64,000 nt of DNA from Enterococcus innesii (GTDB lineage Bacteria > Bacillota > Bacilli > Lactobacillales > Enterococcaceae), in the NCBI GenBank assembly GCA_018982785.1, contig JAHHEN010000002.1, forward strand, positions 129,001 to 193,000. The letters are read 5' to 3'. Both the position numbers and the translations under genes were made by a program. Shown one piece after another: positions 28,776 to 38,065 of this stretch (positions are counted from its first letter, which is position 1; each line of letters opens with the position of its first letter). The notes under the pieces were generated by a model that saw only the letters and a list, made by a program, of their open reading frames with translations, had not been told where the DNA came from and searched no databases.

Positions 28776-28805
28776 TGGTAAAACAGAGATGGAAGGATGA
28801 TGGAA

Positions 28806-29453
28806 ATGAAATTATTAATTACCGGATTTGATCCATTTGGCGGAGAAGCAATCAATCCTGCCTTAGAAGCAGTGAAATTACTGCCAGATACAATTCATGG
28901 TGCACAGATCGTGAAAGCAGAGATCCCCACTGTATTTGGGAAATCAGCGGCGATCGTCGAAGAGAAAATTGAAGAGATCCACCCAGATGTCGTCTTAAAC
29001 ATCGGTCAAGCGGGCGGCCGTTTTGCCATCTCACCAGAACGAGTGGCAATCAATGTGGATGATGCCCGGATTCCTGATAATGAAGGCAATCAACCCGTCG
29101 ATGAAGTGATCCAAACAGAAGGAAAGCCTGCCTACTTCACACAACTGCCGATCAAAGCAATGGTAGAAAATATGAAAAAAGCCGGAATACCTGCAGCCGT
29201 TTCTAATACTGCTGGAACCTTTGTCTGCAACCACATCATGTATCAAGTACAATACATGATCGATACAAAATACCCGGAAATGAAAGGCGGTTTTATCCAC
29301 GTGCCGTTTATTCCTCAGCAAGTCGTCGATAAAGCAGGACAGCCTGCAATGAGCATCGAAGACATTGCCAAAGGATTAACCGCAGCAGTGGAAGCCATCG
29401 TTGATTATGCCGACAAAGAAGATTTAAAAGCGATTGGCGGCGCGATCCATTAA
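28806..29453 (+). CDS. pcp: Pyrrolidone-carboxylate (pyroglutamyl) peptidase
   Basis: Cysteine peptidase (family C15) that removes N-terminal pyroglutamate from peptides. 215 residues, the normal length. Motifs: [21 protein letters not shown], the catalytic Glu region [22 protein letters not shown], catalytic Cys in [14 protein letters not shown] and His in [12 protein letters not shown]. Three ATGs lie close together; GGAAGG at 28791-28796 fits ATG 28806, and the family N-terminus agrees. Confidence 0.95.
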
Positions 29454-29798: not shown

Positions 29799-29827
29799 TT
29801 GCTTTTTTAATAATTATTAATTAAAAT
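29799..29827 (+). promoter_or_regulatory. oppA promoter containing the putative TldR target
   Basis: TTGCTT (29799-29804), 17 nt, TAAAAT (29822-29827), about 65 nt before the oppA start. Inside the spacer lies TTTAA (29806-29810), followed by TAATTATTAATTAAAA (29811-29826). The first seven bases after TTTAA equal the first seven of the presumed guide at 37175, and 8 of the first 9 agree. The remaining 29537-29798 is AT-rich noncoding sequence with no gene. Confidence 0.6.
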
Positions 29828-29891
29828 CTTATCTAACTTCAGAAATCGCATGATTATTCTGAAAATTAATTCAATTAAGGGGTAGGACAGG

Positions 29892-31553
29892 ATGAAAAAT
29901 AAATGGGCCTATGGTTTAGTAGCTGTGTGTGGCGTGGTGTTAGCCGGCTGTACAACAGGCGGAACAAATAGTTCAAGCAATGACACAGCAACTAGCGGCG
30001 ATAGCAACGCAGAACAAGTATTTAACGTAGTGGTTTCACAAGAAATGCCAAGTGCGGATCTCTCATTAGCAACCGATACGATCAGCTTCAGTGCATTGAA
30101 CAATGTATATGAAGGACTGTATCGTTTGGATGCTGACAGCACACCACAACCTGCTGGTGCAGCTGAAGCAGCTGAAGTCAGCGAGGATGGACTAACTTAC
30201 AAGATCAAATTGCGTGAAGATGCGAAATGGTCAAATGGTGACCCTGTTACAGCAGCGGATTATGTCTATGGCTGGCAACGGACGGTCAAACCTGAAACTG
30301 CATCAGAATATGCGTATCTATTTTCACCAGTCAAAAATGCGGATGCCATCACAGCTGGCGATACCGATCCATCAGAGCTAGGCATCAAAGCAGTGGGGGA
30401 TTACGAATTAGAAATCACCCTAGAAAAAGCAACACCTTACTTTGATTACTTATTAGCATTTCCATCCTTCTTCCCACAAAATCAAAAAGTAGTGGAAGAA
30501 AATGGTGATCAATATGCATCAACCAGCGACAATGCCGTTTATAATGGACCATTTGTCTTGACTGGTTTTGATGGACCAGGAACGGATACAGAATGGGCTT
30601 ATGAAAAGAACGATCAGTATTGGGACAAAGACACTGTTAAATTACAAACGATCAACGTAAGCGTCGTGAAAGAATCCTCAACTGCCTTGAATCTTTTCCA
30701 AGATGGTCAAGCAGATGATGTCATCTTAACAGGTGAACTGGCGCAACAGATGGCTAACGACGAAGCATTTATTTCTCAACCAGAAGCATCTACGTACTAT
30801 TTAGAAATGAATCAGCGTGATGAAGATTCACCTTTCCGTAACGAAAACTTGCGTAAAGCGATCTCTTATGCGATCGACCGTGATGCCTTAGTAACATCGA
30901 TCTTAGGTGATGGTTCAATTGCTTCAAGTGGTTTGGTGCCAGAAGGCATGACCTTCAGCCCTGGCGATCATACAGACTTCACAGAAGCAGCTGGCAGCGT
31001 CATTAGCTACGATCAAGAGAAAGCAAAAGAATATTGGGAAAAAGCCAAAGAAGAATTAGGAATCGATTCATTAGAATTTGATATCTTAGCTTCTGATACA
31101 GACTCAACCAAGAAAATCATTGAGTACTTGCAAGACACGATCGAAAAAACATTGGACGGCGTAAAAGTAACCTTAAGTCCTGTGCCTTTATCAGTTCGAT
31201 TGGATCGTTCAAATGCGGGTGATTTTGATGCTGTTATGGCTGGTTGGGGCGCTGACTATGCCGATGCAAGTAGCTTTACTGACTTGTTTACGACAGGCAA
31301 CTCTTACAACCGCGGTCAATGGAGTAACGAAGAATACGATGCAGCTGTAAAAGCAGCAGGTACGACCAATGCCAATGACCCTGACAAACGTTGGGAAGAT
31401 TTAGTCAATGCAGAAAAAATCATTATGAATGAACAAGGTGTCATTCCAGTTTATCAAAAAGCGGAAGCACACTTACGCGCACCGAAAGTCAAAGGTGTTG
31501 TTGCTCACGCAGCAGGCGCACAATACGACTACAAGTGGACATCAATCGAATAA
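29892..31553 (+). CDS. oppA: Oligopeptide ABC transporter substrate-binding lipoprotein OppA
   Basis: Extracellular peptide receptor of family SBP_bac_5, 553 residues. Lipoprotein signal with VLAGC near residues 16-20 and a Ser/Thr linker. Typical OppA sequence: VYEGLYRLDADSTPQPAGA, the family signature region LREDAKWSNGDPVTAADYVYGW, and the C-terminal FDAVMAGWGADYADASSF. ATG behind AAGGGGTAGGACAGG. A terminator separates it from oppBCDF; this lets the receptor be made in excess. Confidence 0.94.
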   Translation: MKNKWAYGLVAVCGVVLAGCTTGGTNSSSNDTATSGDSNAEQVFNVVVSQEMPSADLSLATDTISFSALNNVYEGLYRLDADSTPQPAGAAEAAEVSEDGLTYKIKLREDAKWSNGDPVTAADYVYGWQRTVKPETASEYAYLFSPVKNADAITAGDTDPSELGIKAVGDYELEITLEKATPYFDYLLAFPSFFPQNQKVVEENGDQYASTSDNAVYNGPFVLTGFDGPGTDTEWAYEKNDQYWDKDTVKLQTINVSVVKESSTALNLFQDGQADDVILTGELAQQMANDEAFISQPEASTYYLEMNQRDEDSPFRNENLRKAISYAIDRDALVTSILGDGSIASSGLVPEGMTFSPGDHTDFTEAAGSVISYDQEKAKEYWEKAKEELGIDSLEFDILASDTDSTKKIIEYLQDTIEKTLDGVKVTLSPVPLSVRLDRSNAGDFDAVMAGWGADYADASSFTDLFTTGNSYNRGQWSNEEYDAAVKAAGTTNANDPDKRWEDLVNAEKIIMNEQGVIPVYQKAEAHLRAPKVKGVVAHAAGAQYDYKWTSIE

Positions 31554-31989: not shown

Positions 31990-32072
31990 GATCTGACTCC
32001 TTTTTAATGATTCGTACTATGTTAATTTACATAATTATTGAATAGAAGTCAAAATACTTAAGGGGAAACTGC

Positions 32073-33014
32073 GTGAACAGCTTTTTGAAATATTTATTGA
32101 AACGAGTGTTCTACATGGTCTTAACATTATGGCTGATTGCCACGATCACCTTTTTCTTGATGCAATTTTTGCCAGGAACACCATATACGAATGCTGAAAA
32201 ATTAAGTCCAGAACAAATTGCCTTGCTAAATGAGCAAGCAGGATTGGACAAACCGATCATTACCCAATATTGGCTTTATTTGACCAATTTACTAAAAGGT
32301 GACTTTGGGATCTCTTTCCAATTTAAAAACCAGCCGGTAGCGAATTTACTATCAGGAAGAATCGGACCTTCACTGCAACTAGGGCTACAAGCGATCATCT
32401 TTGGTACGTTCTTTGGGATCATTTTAGGAACGATCTCTGCGATGAAACAAAATACTTGGATCGATACAACGTCTACCTTAGTGGCGATCTTAGGGCGTTC
32501 GATCCCTAACTTTGTCTTTGCCGTTTTGCTGCAATACATTTTTGCCATCAAACTAGGGATCTTGCCGATTGCTAAGTGGGAGACCTTTGCTAGCACGATC
32601 CTACCGACCGTCGCCTTAGCGATGTCGCCGTTAGCGGATTCCGCCAGGTTTATTCGAACCGAGATGGTGGAAGTGCTGCATAGTGATTATGTCGAGTTGG
32701 CACGAGCAAAAGGGTTGAGCCGCTGGGAAATTGCCTTCAAGCACGGTTTGCGGAATAGTTTGATTCCGTTATTGACGTTGTTAGGACCGCTAGCTGTCGG
32801 TTTGATGACTGGTTCCCTTGTCGTAGAAAATATTTTTGCGATCCCGGGTATCGGTGAACAGTTCGTAAAATCAATCATGACCAATGACTATCCAACGATC
32901 ATGGCGGTAACAATTCTTTATTCCGCGATGTTGGTCTTTGTGATTCTTGTTGTTGATATTTTATATGGAATCGTTGATCCGCGGATCCGAGTTTCAGAAG
33001 GGAGTCGTGGCTAA
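32073..33014 (+). CDS. oppB: Oligopeptide ABC transporter permease OppB
   Basis: 313-residue permease with six predicted helices. N-terminal KYLLKRVFYMVLTLWLIAT is typical of OppB/DppB, and the coupling loop DYVELARAKGLSRWEIAFKH lies near residues 205-224. Start GTG 32073 behind AAGGGGAAACTGC. Stop overlaps oppC start (TAATG). Upstream 31990-32072 is AT-rich and contains no strong promoter that I can define. Confidence 0.94.
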   Translation: MNSFLKYLLKRVFYMVLTLWLIATITFFLMQFLPGTPYTNAEKLSPEQIALLNEQAGLDKPIITQYWLYLTNLLKGDFGISFQFKNQPVANLLSGRIGPSLQLGLQAIIFGTFFGIILGTISAMKQNTWIDTTSTLVAILGRSIPNFVFAVLLQYIFAIKLGILPIAKWETFASTILPTVALAMSPLADSARFIRTEMVEVLHSDYVELARAKGLSRWEIAFKHGLRNSLIPLLTLLGPLAVGLMTGSLVVENIFAIPGIGEQFVKSIMTNDYPTIMAVTILYSAMLVFVILVVDILYGIVDPRIRVSEGSRG

Positions 33015-34057
33015 TGGCAGAGAAACCTTACACAGCAAATGATGTTGCTGCCATCGATGCAGCCAAATTTCAACCGTTACAAAAAAATACCAATGAAGAG
33101 CGTGAAGCGATCGCAACCCCTTCATTAACCTTTTTCCAAGATTCATGGCGTCGTTTGAAAAAGAACAAAGCCGCGGTTTTCTCAATCATTTTGTTGCTGA
33201 TCATTATTGCGATCTCAATCATTACGATTTTTGTCTCGCCACATGATCCAACTGCGCAAAATGTGACCTTTACAAATCTGCCGCCGAAAATTCCTGGTAT
33301 CAACATCAATGGCTTAAACGGCTATGCGATGGTGGGGGGCGAGCTAGTAGATAAGTATGCAGCTGCCAATGTTCCTGACGGGACGTATTTCCTTTTAGGA
33401 ACGGATGGATTAGGTCGTGACTTATTGAGTCGTTTATTTGTAGGAACACGTATCTCCTTATTGATTGCGTTTATCGCAGCGATGCTAGATATCATCTTTG
33501 GTGTAACCTATGGCTTGATCTCTGGTCTTTTAGGTGGACGGATCGATAATGTGATGCAACGTTTCTTAGAGATCTTATCTGGTATTCCCAACTTAGTGGT
33601 AATGATCTTGATGCTGGTAGTTTTCGAACCAGGGATCTTCTCGATCGTGGCAGCAATGGCGATCACTAACTGGATTCCAATGGCGCGGATCGTACGGGCC
33701 CAAACAATGAAACTAAAAGATCAGGAATTCGTTTTAGCCGCAACGACACTGGGGGAAAGTCGTCTCAAGATTGCGATGAAACACGTATTACCAAATATTT
33801 CCAGCGTGATCATCGTACAAATGATGTTCAGTATTCCCTCGGCGATTTTCTTCGAGGCCTTCCTAAGCTTTATCGGGCTAGGACTAAAACCACCTTCAGC
33901 ATCTTTAGGGATGTTACTAAGCGATGGCTACAAAACCTTCTTGTTCCTGCCTTACCAAATGTGGGTGCCGGCTGTGACCTTGTCTGTGATTATGATTGGG
34001 TTCAACTTGCTGGCAGACGGTTTGCGTGATGCCTTTGATCCGAAAATGAAAGAGTGA
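33014..34057 (+). CDS. oppC: Oligopeptide ABC transporter permease OppC
   Basis: 347-residue permease. Cytoplasmic N-terminus (~1-45), then OppC-type helices. The extracellular segment GTYFLLGTDGLGRDLLSRLFVG is the OppC_N signature, and the coupling loop QEFVLAATTLGESRLKIAMKH is near 235. Overlaps oppB by one base and is followed directly by oppD. Confidence 0.94.
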   Translation: MAEKPYTANDVAAIDAAKFQPLQKNTNEEREAIATPSLTFFQDSWRRLKKNKAAVFSIILLLIIIAISIITIFVSPHDPTAQNVTFTNLPPKIPGININGLNGYAMVGGELVDKYAAANVPDGTYFLLGTDGLGRDLLSRLFVGTRISLLIAFIAAMLDIIFGVTYGLISGLLGGRIDNVMQRFLEILSGIPNLVVMILMLVVFEPGIFSIVAAMAITNWIPMARIVRAQTMKLKDQEFVLAATTLGESRLKIAMKHVLPNISSVIIVQMMFSIPSAIFFEAFLSFIGLGLKPPSASLGMLLSDGYKTFLFLPYQMWVPAVTLSVIMIGFNLLADGLRDAFDPKMKE

Positions 34058-34062
34058 TCGCG

Positions 34063-35109
34063 ATGAAAAAAGTCTTAGAAGTGAAAAACTTAGAAATTTC
34101 TTTTGACACCTTTGCTGGGAAAGTCCAAGCGATCCGTGATGTCAGTTTCGATCTATACAAAGGAGAAACCTTGGCGATCGTGGGCGAATCCGGGAGCGGC
34201 AAGTCCGTGACAACCCGTAGTATCATGGGGTTGTTAGCCAGCAATGCCAATGTCGATAATGGCCAGATCCTCTTCAATGGGACGGACATTTTGAAAAAAT
34301 CCGAAAAAGAACTGCAAAAAATCCGTGGCAAGGAAATCGCCATGATTTTCCAAGATCCAATGACTTCACTAGACCCAACGATGCCGATTGGTAAGCAAGT
34401 GGCAGAGTCATTGATGAAGCACAACAAAATCAGTAAAAAAGAAGGCTTGCGACAAGCGTTGGAATTACTGAACCTTGTCGGTATCCCGAATGCTGAGAAA
34501 CGCTTGAAAAATTATCCGCATCAATTTTCCGGTGGTCAGCGGCAGCGGATCGTTATTGCGATCGCGTTGATCTGCTACCCACAGATCTTGATTGCAGATG
34601 AACCGACGACTGCATTGGATGTAACGATCCAAGCACAGATCTTAGAGTTATTAAAAGATATTCAGAAGAAAATCAATTCGTCCATCGTCTTTATTACCCA
34701 TGACTTAGGTGTCGTTGCCAATGTGGCTGACCGAGTAGCCGTGATGTATGGTGGGAAAATCGTCGAAGTGGGGACCGCAGAAGAAATCTTCTACAACCCG
34801 CAACATCCGTATACTTGGGGCTTGTTAGGCTCGATGCCGACGTTAGAAGGGACAGGCGATCGGTTGTACGCGATTCCTGGTTCACCACCGGATCTGTTGG
34901 ACCCGCCAACAGGGGACGCTTTTTATCCACGAAACGAATTTGCTTTGCAGATCGATGCAGAACAGCAACCACCGTTCTTTGATGTTTCACCGACTCACAA
35001 AGCAGCAACGTGGCTGTTAGCGCCGCAAGCACCGAAGGTAACTCCGCCGGATGAGATCTTGATTCGCTGGAAAAAATTCCAAGAAAAAAATACTCAGGCA
35101 TCTGTCTAA
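34063..35109 (+). CDS. oppD: Oligopeptide ABC transporter ATPase OppD
   Basis: About 348 residues. Walker A GESGSGKSVT, signature FSGGQRQRIVIAIAL, Walker B ILIADEPTTALD and H-loop FITHDLGVVA are intact. The C-terminal oligo_HPY region (NPQHPYTWGLLGSMP) marks the peptide branch; several such proteins carry Fe-S Cys residues there, which I do not see. A GTG at 34054 is also in frame; ATG 34063 gives the family start. Confidence 0.94.
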   Translation: MKKVLEVKNLEISFDTFAGKVQAIRDVSFDLYKGETLAIVGESGSGKSVTTRSIMGLLASNANVDNGQILFNGTDILKKSEKELQKIRGKEIAMIFQDPMTSLDPTMPIGKQVAESLMKHNKISKKEGLRQALELLNLVGIPNAEKRLKNYPHQFSGGQRQRIVIAIALICYPQILIADEPTTALDVTIQAQILELLKDIQKKINSSIVFITHDLGVVANVADRVAVMYGGKIVEVGTAEEIFYNPQHPYTWGLLGSMPTLEGTGDRLYAIPGSPPDLLDPPTGDAFYPRNEFALQIDAEQQPPFFDVSPTHKAATWLLAPQAPKVTPPDEILIRWKKFQEKNTQASV

Positions 35110-35123
35110 AGGAGGAGAAACGG

Positions 35124-36095
35124 TTGGAAAAAGTTTTACTTGAAGTAAAGAATCTTAAACAATATTTTAACGTTGGCCGCAAAGACGAAGTCAAAGCCGT
35201 CGATGATATCTCCTTCCAAATCTATGAAGGAGAAACCTTTGGTCTAGTAGGCGAATCCGGAAGTGGAAAATCGACCACTGGACGGACGGTGATTCGTTTG
35301 AATAACCCTACCGGAGGCGAAGTTCTTTTTGATGGACAAGATGTTATGAAAATCAAAGGCAAGAAACCGCTGGCTGATTTTCGCCGGGAAGTCCAAATGG
35401 TCTTCCAAGATCCTTATGCCTCCTTGAATCCCCGGATGAAAGTTCGGGACATTATTGCTGAAGGGATCGATATCAACGGATTAGCCAAAAATGAAAAAGA
35501 ACGCAATGATCGGGTGGATGAACTTTTGCGAACGGTCGGACTCAACCCAAGTCACGGGACCCGTTATCCCCATGAATTTTCAGGGGGACAACGTCAACGG
35601 ATCGGGATCGCCCGCGCGTTAGCCGTCGATCCAAAATTCATTATCTGTGATGAACCGATCTCGGCATTGGATGTTTCGATCCAAGCCCAAGTCGTTAACT
35701 TGTTGCAAGATCTGCAAGAAGAGCATAAATTGACCTACTTGTTTATCGCTCATGACTTATCGATGGTCAAACACATCAGCGATCGGATCGGCGTGATGCA
35801 CAACGGCAAACTGCTAGAAGTGGGAACTAGTGATGAAATCTATCATTACGGGGTCCATCCGTATACTGAAAGTCTTTTATCAGCGATTCCACTGCCAGAT
35901 CCTGACCATGAGCGTCAACGCAAACGGATCAAATACGTCAGTGAACCAAACGATAACCAAGAACGAGCAATGGAAGAAATCGCACCAGGACATTTCGTTT
36001 ATGCCACGAAACAAGAAGCCAAGATCTACCAAGAAAAGTTAGCACAAAAAAGGGGAACTAGCGTCAAAGGTATAGGGAGTGTTAGGAGGAGATGA
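35124..36095 (+). CDS. oppF: Oligopeptide ABC transporter ATPase OppF
   Basis: 323 residues; partner of OppD. Walker A GESGSGKSTTGR, signature FSGGQRQRIGIARALAVDP, Walker B FIICDEPISALDVS, H-loop IAHDLSMVKH, and the C-terminal HPYTESLLSAIPLPDP. Start TTG 35124 behind AAAGGAGGAGAAACGG. Its last codons carry the ribosome binding site of the TnpB-like gene, and the stop TGA overlaps that gene's ATG. Confidence 0.95.
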   Translation: MEKVLLEVKNLKQYFNVGRKDEVKAVDDISFQIYEGETFGLVGESGSGKSTTGRTVIRLNNPTGGEVLFDGQDVMKIKGKKPLADFRREVQMVFQDPYASLNPRMKVRDIIAEGIDINGLAKNEKERNDRVDELLRTVGLNPSHGTRYPHEFSGGQRQRIGIARALAVDPKFIICDEPISALDVSIQAQVVNLLQDLQEEHKLTYLFIAHDLSMVKHISDRIGVMHNGKLLEVGTSDEIYHYGVHPYTESLLSAIPLPDPDHERQRKRIKYVSEPNDNQERAMEEIAPGHFVYATKQEAKIYQEKLAQKRGTSVKGIGSVRRR

Positions 36096-37089
36096 AACTG
36101 GGTGTTTTAAAAGCATACAAATTTCGGATCTATCCTAATGGACAGCAAAAACAGTTTTTCATCGAAACCTTCGGCTGTGTACGGTTTACGTACAATCAAC
36201 TGCTGGAGGCGAAGATGGAAGAGCTGGCCAACAATGAAGCAAAGCAAGGGTTGACGCCAGCCAAACTAAAAAAGGAGTATCCTTTTTTGAAGGAGACCGA
36301 TAGTTTGGCATTGGCGAATGCACAACGGAATCTGGACCGAGCGTTTCGAAATTACTTTCAAAAGCGGGCTGGCTTTCCAAAAATGAAAACCAAAAAAAGT
36401 ATCTGGCAATCGTATACCACCAATAATCAGCAGCACACCATTTATTTTGAAGAGGATCAAATCAAGCTGCCAAAGCTCAAAACACTGGTTCCCGTAAAAA
36501 AGCATCGGGAGATCAAAGGGAAAATCAAATCGGCAACGATCTCAGCAAAAAATAACGAAGAGTTTTACATCTCGATCCTTTGTTTGGAAGAGATCACGCC
36601 ACTCCCGAAACAGCAAGCGTCTATCGCGGTTGTTTATGATCCACAGCAGTTGGTCAAAGCCAACCAGCCGGTACCCATCACCTGTGAACATGCCATCCAA
36701 ACGAAGCAAAAGCTGACACGAGCAGAACGCAAACTTCAGGTGAAAGCTACGGCGGTCAAACGGAAAAAATCCTTTTGACTCAGGCACGAAATTATCAGAA
36801 GCTAAAAGGAAAGGTCGCTCGCCTTTATCGTTTTCACTGCTGTCAAAAGCGGGAATTCATCGATCAAGTCAGCTACCATCTCGTAAAACAGTATGATACG
36901 ATCTATTTGGAACAAATCGCAGAAGATACGGTTTTAAAAGCTGGTCATTACAGCATCAGTGATTGGCATCAATTCGTTCGCAAAATCCAGTACAAAGCGC
37001 AGTGGTACGGTAAAGAACTGCGTTTTGTCACGTTGGATACGCAGGACCAACAGAAGCTAGAACGGCTCTCAGGCGAAATGAGTAGCTGA
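36092..37089 (+). CDS. tldR: oppF-associated TldR: TnpB-like nuclease-dead repressor (frameshifted as read)
   Basis: TnpB homologue of ~332 residues after repair. TnpB features: AYKFRIYPNGQQKQFF and FGCVRFTYNQLLE near 8-39, then DSLALANAQRNLDRAFRNYF, RAGFPKMKTKK and QSYTT to ~110. The RuvC-I site, normally IDLG, reads AVVYDPQQ near 179-186, so the catalytic Asp is Val. The RuvC-II Glu remains (IYLEQIAED, ~274). The protein ends before the zinc ribbon and last Asp, so DNA cleavage is not expected. As read, an A6 run (36764-36769) breaks the frame; one extra A gives KRKKILLTQARNYQKLKG. Coupled to oppF (ATGA). No TnpA or transposon ends. TldR proteins of this oppF type are known from enterococci and act as RNA-guided repressors. 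Confidence 0.85.
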
Positions 37090-37190
37090 GCCACTTGAAC
37101 TGGAAGGAACGCCAGGGATCGCCTAGGGTATAGAAAAAATCTTTAAGATTTTTGTTTCTAGGAACCACGTTCACTAATTATGATTAACCA
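37060..37190 (+). ncRNA. Putative TldR guide RNA (omega-RNA-like scaffold plus short guide)
   Basis: Structured sequence overlapping the end of tldR, as for TnpB omega-RNAs. Hairpins: GGCTC...GAGCC (37065-37094 region), CTGG/CCAG, CCTAG...CTAGG enclosing TAGA-AAAAATC/GATTTTT-TCTA (37122-37162), and a small GAAC-CAC-GTTC just before AC at 37174. The presumed guide starts at 37175 with TAATTATGATTAACC, followed directly by a terminator. The boundary at 37174/37175 is my inference from the GTTCAC end and the match at the oppA promoter. Confidence 0.6.
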
Positions 37191-37192
37191 GC

Positions 37193-37236
37193 AACCCCCT
37201 GTCAAACTAAGGTCTGACAGGGGGTTGTATTTTTTT
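37193..37236 (+). terminator. Intrinsic terminator of the opp-tldR-guide transcript
   Basis: AACCCCCTGTCA and TGACAGGGGGTT pair over 12 bp, followed by GTATTTTTTT. It also overlaps the stop of the minus-strand Nudix gene. Confidence 0.93.
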
Positions 37237-38065
37237 ACATTTTATCACCTAAAAATGCGTCATTTAAGCGATAGATCTTTGAGGGACGCCCGATGCCGAC
37301 GGGCTTTTCGCCGACTTCCGTAAAATATTGGAGCATGGATTTTTTGAAGTTGGAATGATCGATCATTTTAAAATCGATTCCTAAAAACTTGGCGAATACT
37401 TTACGGGCTTCCGTGATCGTAAAGTCTTTGCCTAACACAAGAAGCACTTGCGGCTCGTGCTCCATCTTATTGGCAACCCGTTTGAAGGCTTTGAGAATGA
37501 TCGCGCTGTGGTCAAAAGCCAACGTATCTTTTCCAACAGAGGCGCCAGTCACCAGGTCAAGAATGATCTCGATCTCACCGCTGGTCAAATAGATTTGATT
37601 GGCTTTTCTTTCCAGAGAGAACCAGCGCACTTGATTCGCATCGTCCCCAGCACTCAAGGGCTCTTCACCAATAAATGCCAAATAGCTGACGGTGATGACC
37701 CACCCACGTGGATCACGACCAGGGGTGCTGAAGGTATGCAGCTGTTCGATGTTTTGTTTGGAGATGGTGACCCCAATCTCTTCTTGGGTCTCACGGATCA
37801 CACTTTGGCCTGTCGATTCATTGGGATTGACGAAGCCCCCTGGCAATGCCCAAGAATTACGGAAAGGATGCCCTTTTCTTTGGATCAGCGCAATTTTGAG
37901 TTGTTCTTCTTCTTTGTTGTAACACATCAACACCATATCGACGGTTACGGAGGGTTTCTCGTATTTTGGCTGATCTTGTGCCTGATACCACGTAAGAAAG
38001 TCTGCTTCAGAAGCTTCTTTTTCATAGTAGTGCTTTTCAGCTGATTTTGAGGTAAATTCTTTCAT
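37235..38065 (-). CDS. Nudix domain protein with C-terminal winged helix (NrtR-like)
   Basis: 276 residues. The N-terminal Nudix domain has a complete Nudix box (GFVNPNESTGQSVIRETQEEIGV, G-x5-E-x7-RE-x2-EE-x-G). The last ~80 residues (GIGRPSKIYRLNDAFLGDKM) form the winged helix typical of NrtR regulators, which sense ADP-ribose or NAD metabolites. NrtR members usually have a degenerate box; an intact box suggests possible hydrolase activity, so enzyme, regulator or both remain open. ATG behind GGCAGGAGAAACCA. Confidence 0.8.
   Translation of the reverse strand: MKEFTSKSAEKHYYEKEASEADFLTWYQAQDQPKYEKPSVTVDMVLMCYNKEEEQLKIALIQRKGHPFRNSWALPGGFVNPNESTGQSVIRETQEEIGVTISKQNIEQLHTFSTPGRDPRGWVITVSYLAFIGEEPLSAGDDANQVRWFSLERKANQIYLTSGEIEIILDLVTGASVGKDTLAFDHSAIILKAFKRVANKMEHEPQVLLVLGKDFTITEARKVFAKFLGIDFKMIDHSNFKKSMLQYFTEVGEKPVGIGRPSKIYRLNDAFLGDKM

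Follow-up and report, generated by a model that had tools for sequence, protein, structure and literature searches.

An opp operon ending in tldR and a guide RNA

The window, meaning the whole 64,000-nucleotide stretch of DNA analysed here, encodes a peptide-transport operon in the order oppA, oppB, oppC, oppD, oppF, tldR, guide RNA and a hairpin with a T-run. The sequence is E. casseliflavus-like, with 7203 of 7503 aligned opp–tldR positions agreeing with E. casseliflavus NBRC 100478, and the operon is flanked by a pyroglutamyl peptidase gene (28797–29453) and a convergent gene for a Nudix/NrtR-type regulator (37235–38065). The operon and its promoter comprise the following features:

29799–29804, + strand: −35 hexamer of oppA, TTGCTT (read from the sequence; TTG at the same offset in 44 of 44 readable loci)
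29806–29810, + strand: TAM TTTAA (read from the sequence; also precedes 16 of 17 sister TnpB left ends)
29811–29817, + strand: putative seed target TAATTAT of the TldR guide (bases 1–6 invariant in 45 of 45 loci, base 7 is T in 33 of 45)
29822–29827, + strand: −10 hexamer of oppA, TAAAAT (TAAAAT, TAAACT or TACAAT in 45 of 45 loci)
29853–29867, + strand: CodY-box-like ATTATTCTGAAAATT in the oppA leader (read from the sequence)
29892–31553, + strand: oppA, peptide-binding protein (SBP_bac_5)
32073–33014, + strand: oppB (open reading frame; synteny in related loci)
33014–34057, + strand: oppC (open reading frame; synteny in related loci)
34054–35109, + strand: oppD (open reading frame; synteny in related loci)
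35124–36095, + strand: oppF, ABC ATPase
36092–36778, + strand: N-terminal part of tldR (HTH_OrfB_IS605), stopping at a frameshift
36775–37089, + strand: C-terminal part of tldR in another frame, RuvC-III/Zn region missing
37094–37174, + strand: guide RNA scaffold (weak Rfam Ref70 match)
37175–37186, + strand: guide TAATTATGATTA, seed being the first 6–7 bases (boundary from sister TnpB ends and Ref70)
37191–37234, + strand: strong hairpin and T-run, a likely terminator behind the guide (from folding)

The tldR reading frame is not intact in the window, where it falls into two overlapping open reading frames (36092–36778 and 36775–37089) because an A-run there has one base fewer than its NBRC 100478 counterpart. 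Full-length tldR frames of 331–345 codons are present in the other five genomes of the same genus (g1, six genomes including the window's own, G000), and the homopolymer difference in the window may be an assembly error or may be bypassed by slippage. For the window's genome only, we give somewhat less than even odds to the explanation that the oppA site is a relic, tldR a pseudogene and opp freed. The split frame, set against the five full-length ones, favours such decay, whereas the undamaged site, scaffold and guide, together with the two other ways of accounting for the A-run, argue against it; decay in this one genome is in any case compatible with TldR acting at oppA in the family at large.

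We compared TldR proteins with sister elements encoding TnpB relatives with intact motifs, which occur in several copies in neighbouring genera. Alignment to four TnpBs with GIDLG and HDRDIN motifs reveals loss of the first RuvC aspartate (GIDLG) in all 15 TldR rows and in the window, and an absent or replaced RuvC-III/Zn region in 15 of 15, with the RuvC-II glutamate retained in some. The RuvC triad, zinc finger and mobile copies of an active IS605 TnpB were not found for tldR, which has a single match in G000. A TnpA query from the sister elements found no match in 76 of 78 TldR loci, whereas 17 of 18 TnpB loci match; the two TldR loci with weak matches (25–26% identity) have them 0.6 kb behind tldR (L040) and about 9 kb away (L144). 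The position behind oppF is stable: in each of the 65 loci that have oppA, the oppF match ends 0–656 bp ahead of tldR, and in 56 of them the distance is within 400 bp. Judged by its sequence, TldR appears to be a domesticated, nuclease-dead relative of TnpB.

The guide boundary and the oppA site across Enterococcaceae

To place the guide and its target motif we relied on other elements and not on the match between guide and oppA itself. The conserved 3′ end of the sister TnpB loci stops at TTCAC, with differing DNA beyond, in 17 of 18 cases (the exception, L330, is a more distant element with another end), and since these scaffolds end at TTCAC the guide start in the window is set at 37175, directly after the scaffold end at 37174, where the sequence reads TAATTATGATTAACC. 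The TldR RNAs read CAC followed by TAATTA in 75 of 78 loci (74 and the window; missing in L061, L072 and L087). At the left ends of the sister TnpB elements, TTTAA precedes the element in 16 of 17 cases with differing DNA ahead of it (exception L326), and the insertion habit of IS605 elements places TTTAA outside the element, as the target motif. Six loci (L041, L048, L060, L067, L080 and L082) hold extra TldR genes without adjoining opp that retain the guide start TAATTAT.

The Rfam family Ref70 (RF02841) reaches its gathering score at one of six loci scanned, L089, with 119.9 bits against 115 and a full-length match ending at guide base 12, and Ref70 is probably the TldR guide RNA of its species. 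The match in the window is weak (37094–37186, 35.6 bits, E 1e-4, gathering score 115). RNA and hairpin in the window fold better than 200 of 200 shuffles (z −4.9), and a consensus terminator scan did not list the hairpin at 37191–37234. Within the guide, base 8 (37182) is G or A in all 54 loci that are not from g13 or g2 and mismatches the oppA target base, which is T in 45 of 45 forward-site loci, and bases 12–15 (AACC, 37186–37189) are conserved with no block match in the oppA target.

The original prediction held that a guide starting near 37175 matches a TTTAA-flanked site between the −35 and −10 elements of oppA. Re-reading the sequence bore out the coordinates 29799–29827 and the TAATTAT after 37174, as well as the agreement of eight of the first nine bases (bases 1–7 and 9), and the sister elements support both the guide start and TTTAA as TAM. 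The oppA −35/−10 spacer is 17 bases long and contains TTTAA and TAATTAT. Alone, TAATTAT occurs at its expected frequency (9 in the window, 10.25 expected from shuffles). For the 12-mer TTTAATAATTAT, 60 simulated sequences give an expectation of about 0.03 copies per 64 kb; the window has one exact copy and the 3.69-Mb genome three. Chance, which the prediction had left open, is a poor account of a match this rare that recurs in 65 of 65 opp-linked loci against 0 of 13 others. A simple promoter scan of the window did not list the oppA promoter, so its assignment rests on conservation. A further TAATTAT at 32032, upstream of oppB, is not supported as a second target: it is kept in six of six g1 loci and never stands behind TTTAA, as the prediction had described for the window. 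Five g5 genomes (L073, position 7855; G045, G048, G049 and G050) have an exact 12-mer on the opposite strand between oppA and oppB. The leader box at 29853 is called CodY-like by comparison with the CodY-box motif, which we take to be AATTTTCWGAAAATT; such boxes are common to many related oppA leaders and also occur upstream of dtpT.

We searched 105 Enterococcaceae genomes and read 78 TldR loci, comprising all 58 matches better than E 1e-70, 19 of 21 g13 matches (leaving out G080 and G089) and G006. Sixty-five of these loci have oppA upstream, and in all 65 TTTAATAATTA lies within 130 bp of an oppA start, with both strands and every oppA copy at a locus taken into account. The placement predicted for the window, on the coding strand between −35 and −10, holds in 45 loci, where 11 bases are invariant, TTG stands 7 bases before the site in 44 of 44 readable forward-site loci, and a −10 hexamer follows at fixed spacing in 45 of 45 (TAAAAT in 26, TAAACT in 11, TACAAT in 8). 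It does not hold in the other 20 loci (19 in g13, 1 in g2), where the oppA leader carries the site on the opposite strand. For g13 we discarded a different TAM, ATAAA, suggested by the forward leader (ATAAA followed by TAATTATTA), as the opposite strand reads TTTAA followed by TAATTATT. The g13 leader site also lies near a divergent gene for a FUSC_2-family membrane protein (L390, L391, L394, L405, L408, L409 and L410), which accounts for 7 neighbours in the Pfam tally given below. Beyond TTTAA, each target matches the guide of its locus without interruption over 6 bases (12 loci), 7 (33 loci), 8 (19 loci) or 9 (1 locus), and this six-base minimum agrees with the fliC-associated TldR, for which a guide of 6 nt suffices (PMC13418256).

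Genomes lacking an opp-linked TldR provide the control. The site is absent at oppA in 13 of 13 such genomes (oppA 63–72% identity) and in 0 of 4 further oppA copies is it present, one of these being in a TldR-bearing genome (G012). Three of the genomes classed as without TldR have TnpB-like matches (G008, G029 and G057, 35–39%), as do five g3 controls (G011, G015, G017, G019 and G023, 38–50%). In G029, a g4 genome without opp-linked TldR, TTGCTT and TAAACT are kept with TTTTTAGAAATATTTAT between them where TldR-bearing g4 genomes read TTTAATAATTATTCAT: the promoter is kept, and the TAM and seed have decayed. Within g3, G012 has TldR and the site and the seven TldR-lacking genomes read have none, and the same contrast separates G056 from G057 in g7 and the 19 g13 loci from G072. 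The expectation that guide and oppA promoter would change together is thus borne out as presence (65 of 65) and absence (13 of 13) but not as covariation; the seed is invariant, so the evidence consists of co-presence and loss and not of compensatory change.

Candidate sites at other uptake genes

oppA as a target is supported, and it is one of several likely targets. The two remaining exact copies of TTTAATAATTAT in the window's genome both lie at transporter genes, one 218 bp upstream of dtpT, encoding a di/tripeptide transporter of the POT family, and one inside livH of a branched-chain amino-acid transporter:

L131 region 2128–2139, equal to G000 C7:46128–46139: dtpT site
L096 1501–1512, equal to G000 C10:344313–344324: livH site

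Among the 18616 distinct 12-mers in the dtpT upstream regions of 68 genomes, TTTAATAATTAT comes third whether genera or genomes are counted, outranked only by two CodY-box words, and the 11-mer ranks tenth by genera and fifth by genomes. The 12-mer is present in 20 of 34 genomes of g1, g4, g5 and g6 and the 11-mer in 22 of 34, compared with means of 0.13 (maximum 2) and 0.52 (maximum 4) genomes in shuffles of the same upstream regions, these four genera having been chosen for the first word count and shuffles after sites were seen there. By genus, the 11-mer occurs in four of six g1 genomes (G002 is without it and G004 is cut by a contig end), in 12 of 13 g4 genomes with TldR and 0 of 2 without, in two of nine g5 genomes and in four of four g6 genomes; G041 has the site with a mismatch. 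Position and strand differ by lineage. In g1 the site is on the + strand near −220, and two g5 genomes have it on that strand at −116 and −128; in g4 it is on the opposite strand near −156, as it is near −234 in three of four g6 genomes. None of 34 upstream regions outside these genera, many of them from TldR-bearing genomes, has the 11-mer. The g4 site overlaps a TATAAT-like sequence, and a promoter scan at dtpT gave nothing useful.

In livH, the codons ATT TTA ATA ATT AT(A/T) are unchanged in all six g1 and all four g6 genomes while neighbouring codons vary synonymously, and they occur in none of 10 genomes that lack an opp-linked TldR and in none of 8 further genomes with TldR, a count that omits G056 and G057 as out of register. 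Part of this freeze may reflect common ancestry of g1 and g6.

Other lineages place sites at other transporters. Eight g13 genomes have 28 sites, which include oppA in eight of eight, a LivJ-like binding protein in seven, an oppD-like operon in five and another oppA paralogue in one, with target identities taken from Pfam for one of each. An oppD-like operon is likewise preceded by a site in three of three g8 genomes (Pfam for G060), and in four of four dpp-like operons that have a TldR of their own, the 11-mer stands ahead of the binding-protein gene on the opposite strand. Three g5 genomes with TldR and no opp have 17 11-mer sites, among them one before a peptide-binding protein gene in all three. 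Two glutamine-type ABC transporters also have sites, at most about 0.6 kb upstream, in three of three and two of three genomes (Pfam for G044); in G042 an IS-like open reading frame now separates the site from the gene for one of these transporters. Two of six g1 genomes have a site upstream of a 205–212-aa protein (L262, L249), with no Pfam match for L262.

When 14 genomes from two genera are pooled, amino-acid or peptide transporters are touched by 37 of 51 sites (16 of 23 from the six g1 genomes, 21 of 28 from the eight g13 genomes) compared with 1 of 30 reversed-pattern sites (the 30 with a locus among 39 control sites), using a transporter reference list drawn from genes already seen beside sites and counting orthologous sites in related genomes that are not independent. 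By the same reference list, 0 of 19 sites in g3 genomes without TldR touch such transporters; by Pfam two of the 19 count loosely, one lying before an amino-acid permease gene (L113) and the other before a gene of a dicarboxylate symporter family (L109). When neighbours are tallied by Pfam with no such list, the result is, among the families listed, SBP_bac_5 15, BPD_transp_2 12, Peripla_BP_6 7, oligo_HPY 5 and PTR2 4 of 66 neighbours, and the control tally gives, again among the families listed, a single BPD_transp_2 in 38 neighbours. Counted in full, sites outnumber those of the reversed pattern in g1 (23 to 5) and in the 13 g4 genomes with TldR (51 to 34). There is no such excess in g5 (42 to 46), among the eight g13 genomes (28 to 34) or among 19 g3 genomes that lack TldR (71 to 66), and with totals this close to the reversed pattern much of the background in AT-rich genomes is chance.

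These counts bear on a narrower explanation, that TldR acts on its own opp operon only and that TTTAATAATTAT elsewhere reflects AT-rich coincidence or plain promoter sequence. It would account for an oppA site that is universal (65 of 65) beside others that are lineage-specific, for the confinement of dtpT sites to four genera, for the TATAAT-like overlap in g4 and for the unremarkable totals in g5 and g13. We nevertheless regard it as improbable, given the 37 of 51 against 1 of 30 in the same genomes, the transporter-rich neighbours in the tally made without a reference list and the livH codons frozen in 10 of 10 g1 and g6 genomes. The pooled counts instead make TldR look like a short-seed regulator of amino-nitrogen uptake.

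A proposed short-seed regulator and its relation to known systems

We put at roughly four in five the probability that the oppA site is a target of the TldR encoded at the end of the same opp operon and that the same guide reaches other uptake genes, a reading built from sequence comparison. Several observations count against it: the mismatch at guide base 8 in all 45 forward-site loci, the conserved AACC with no matching block at oppA, the lack of dtpT sites in 34 upstream regions of other genera and in most of g5, the site totals in g5 and g13 that do not surpass the reversed pattern, and the broken tldR of the window. By contrast, it is very improbable that TTTAATAATTAT is the operator of an unrelated DNA-binding protein with an accidental or derived resemblance to the guide: the window target overlaps the palindrome TAATAATTATTA, as for a dimeric repressor, with a CodY-like box nearby, but that palindrome is not conserved (TAATTAATAATT in g17, TAATTACTAATT or TAATTACTGATT in g7 and g8) while the TAM and six bases are invariant, none of the 13 genomes lacking an opp-linked TldR has the site, and both the guide start and the TAM come from other elements.

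In the TldR model, the RNA just downstream of tldR would carry a guide starting TAATTAT, and TldR with this RNA would recognise TTTAA followed by TAATTA(T) between the −35 and −10 of oppA. Bound there, TldR would block RNA polymerase and lower opp transcription. We propose that, with tldR inside the opp operon, lower opp transcription would also lower tldR transcription, a negative feedback loop that may be broken in the window's genome, where tldR is frameshifted as assembled. The site, guide boundary, TAM, RuvC residue loss, co-presence and recurrence of sites that feed this model are features of the sequences themselves; for binding, repression, feedback and physiological sense it draws on analogy with published TldRs.

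The same short guide may act in trans on dtpT, liv, second opp or dpp-like and glutamine-type ABC operons, differing by lineage. With TAM and seed amounting to only 11–12 bp, target sites in such a regulon would arise and decay by point mutation, and this turnover would leave lineages differing in strand, position and transporter (opp, dtpT, liv, dpp-like, glutamine-type), with sites even within coding sequence. The CodY-like boxes next to the sites at oppA and dtpT hint that CodY shares in the control, and TldR would then be a short-seed regulator of amino-nitrogen uptake beside CodY. We consider it fairly probable that one domesticated TnpB, whose guide requires no more than 6–7 bases, regulates amino-acid and peptide uptake across the genome in Enterococcaceae and so forms an RNA-guided counterpart to CodY. 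If true, a regulon built on a 6–7-nt seed would bear on how an RNA-guided protein becomes a wide regulator, how little specificity this needs and how sites turn over, and it yields testable predictions for enterococcal nitrogen metabolism next to CodY.

To our knowledge, few RNA-guided transcription factors have been described, and for each the kinds of target number one or a few. Wiegand et al., in Nature in 2024, reportedly described an oppF-associated enterococcal TldR, a nuclease-dead TnpB relative encoded after oppF, with its guide RNA downstream of tldR and its target said to lie upstream of oppA. The oppF–TldR link to oppA is thus reportedly already published, and the wider regulon may perhaps be new. 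To this the present analysis adds the family-wide test (65 of 65 against 0 of 13), the 6–9-nt uninterrupted match, the opposite-strand leader site in g13 and g2, the frameshifted copy in the window, and further likely targets at dtpT, liv, opp2 or dpp-like and glutamine-type ABC genes. A multi-transporter TldR regulon was not found in the literature searched, which is weak evidence of absence. The same search found no paper linking TldR to Ref70, the Rfam Enterococcus sRNA that is like the TldR guide RNA at L089 and only weakly matched in the window, and the passages of enterococcal RNA papers searched yielded nothing on Ref70 and opp.

The IS605-type TnpBs of the same genomes (L314–L329 and L331) share 47–50% identity with TldR over the N-terminal part, and resemble it in a scaffold ending TTCAC (CAC in TldR RNAs) and in TTTAA at the left end. 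Unlike TldR, they keep GIDLG and HDRDIN (four rows), have TnpA beside 17 of 18 and occur in several copies per genome. The fliC-associated TldR of Enterobacter prophages performs RNA-guided repression at a promoter (PMC13418256). The fliC TldR is phage-borne with a flagellin target, whereas the opp TldR is chromosomal and linked to peptide transport, with several sites per genome.
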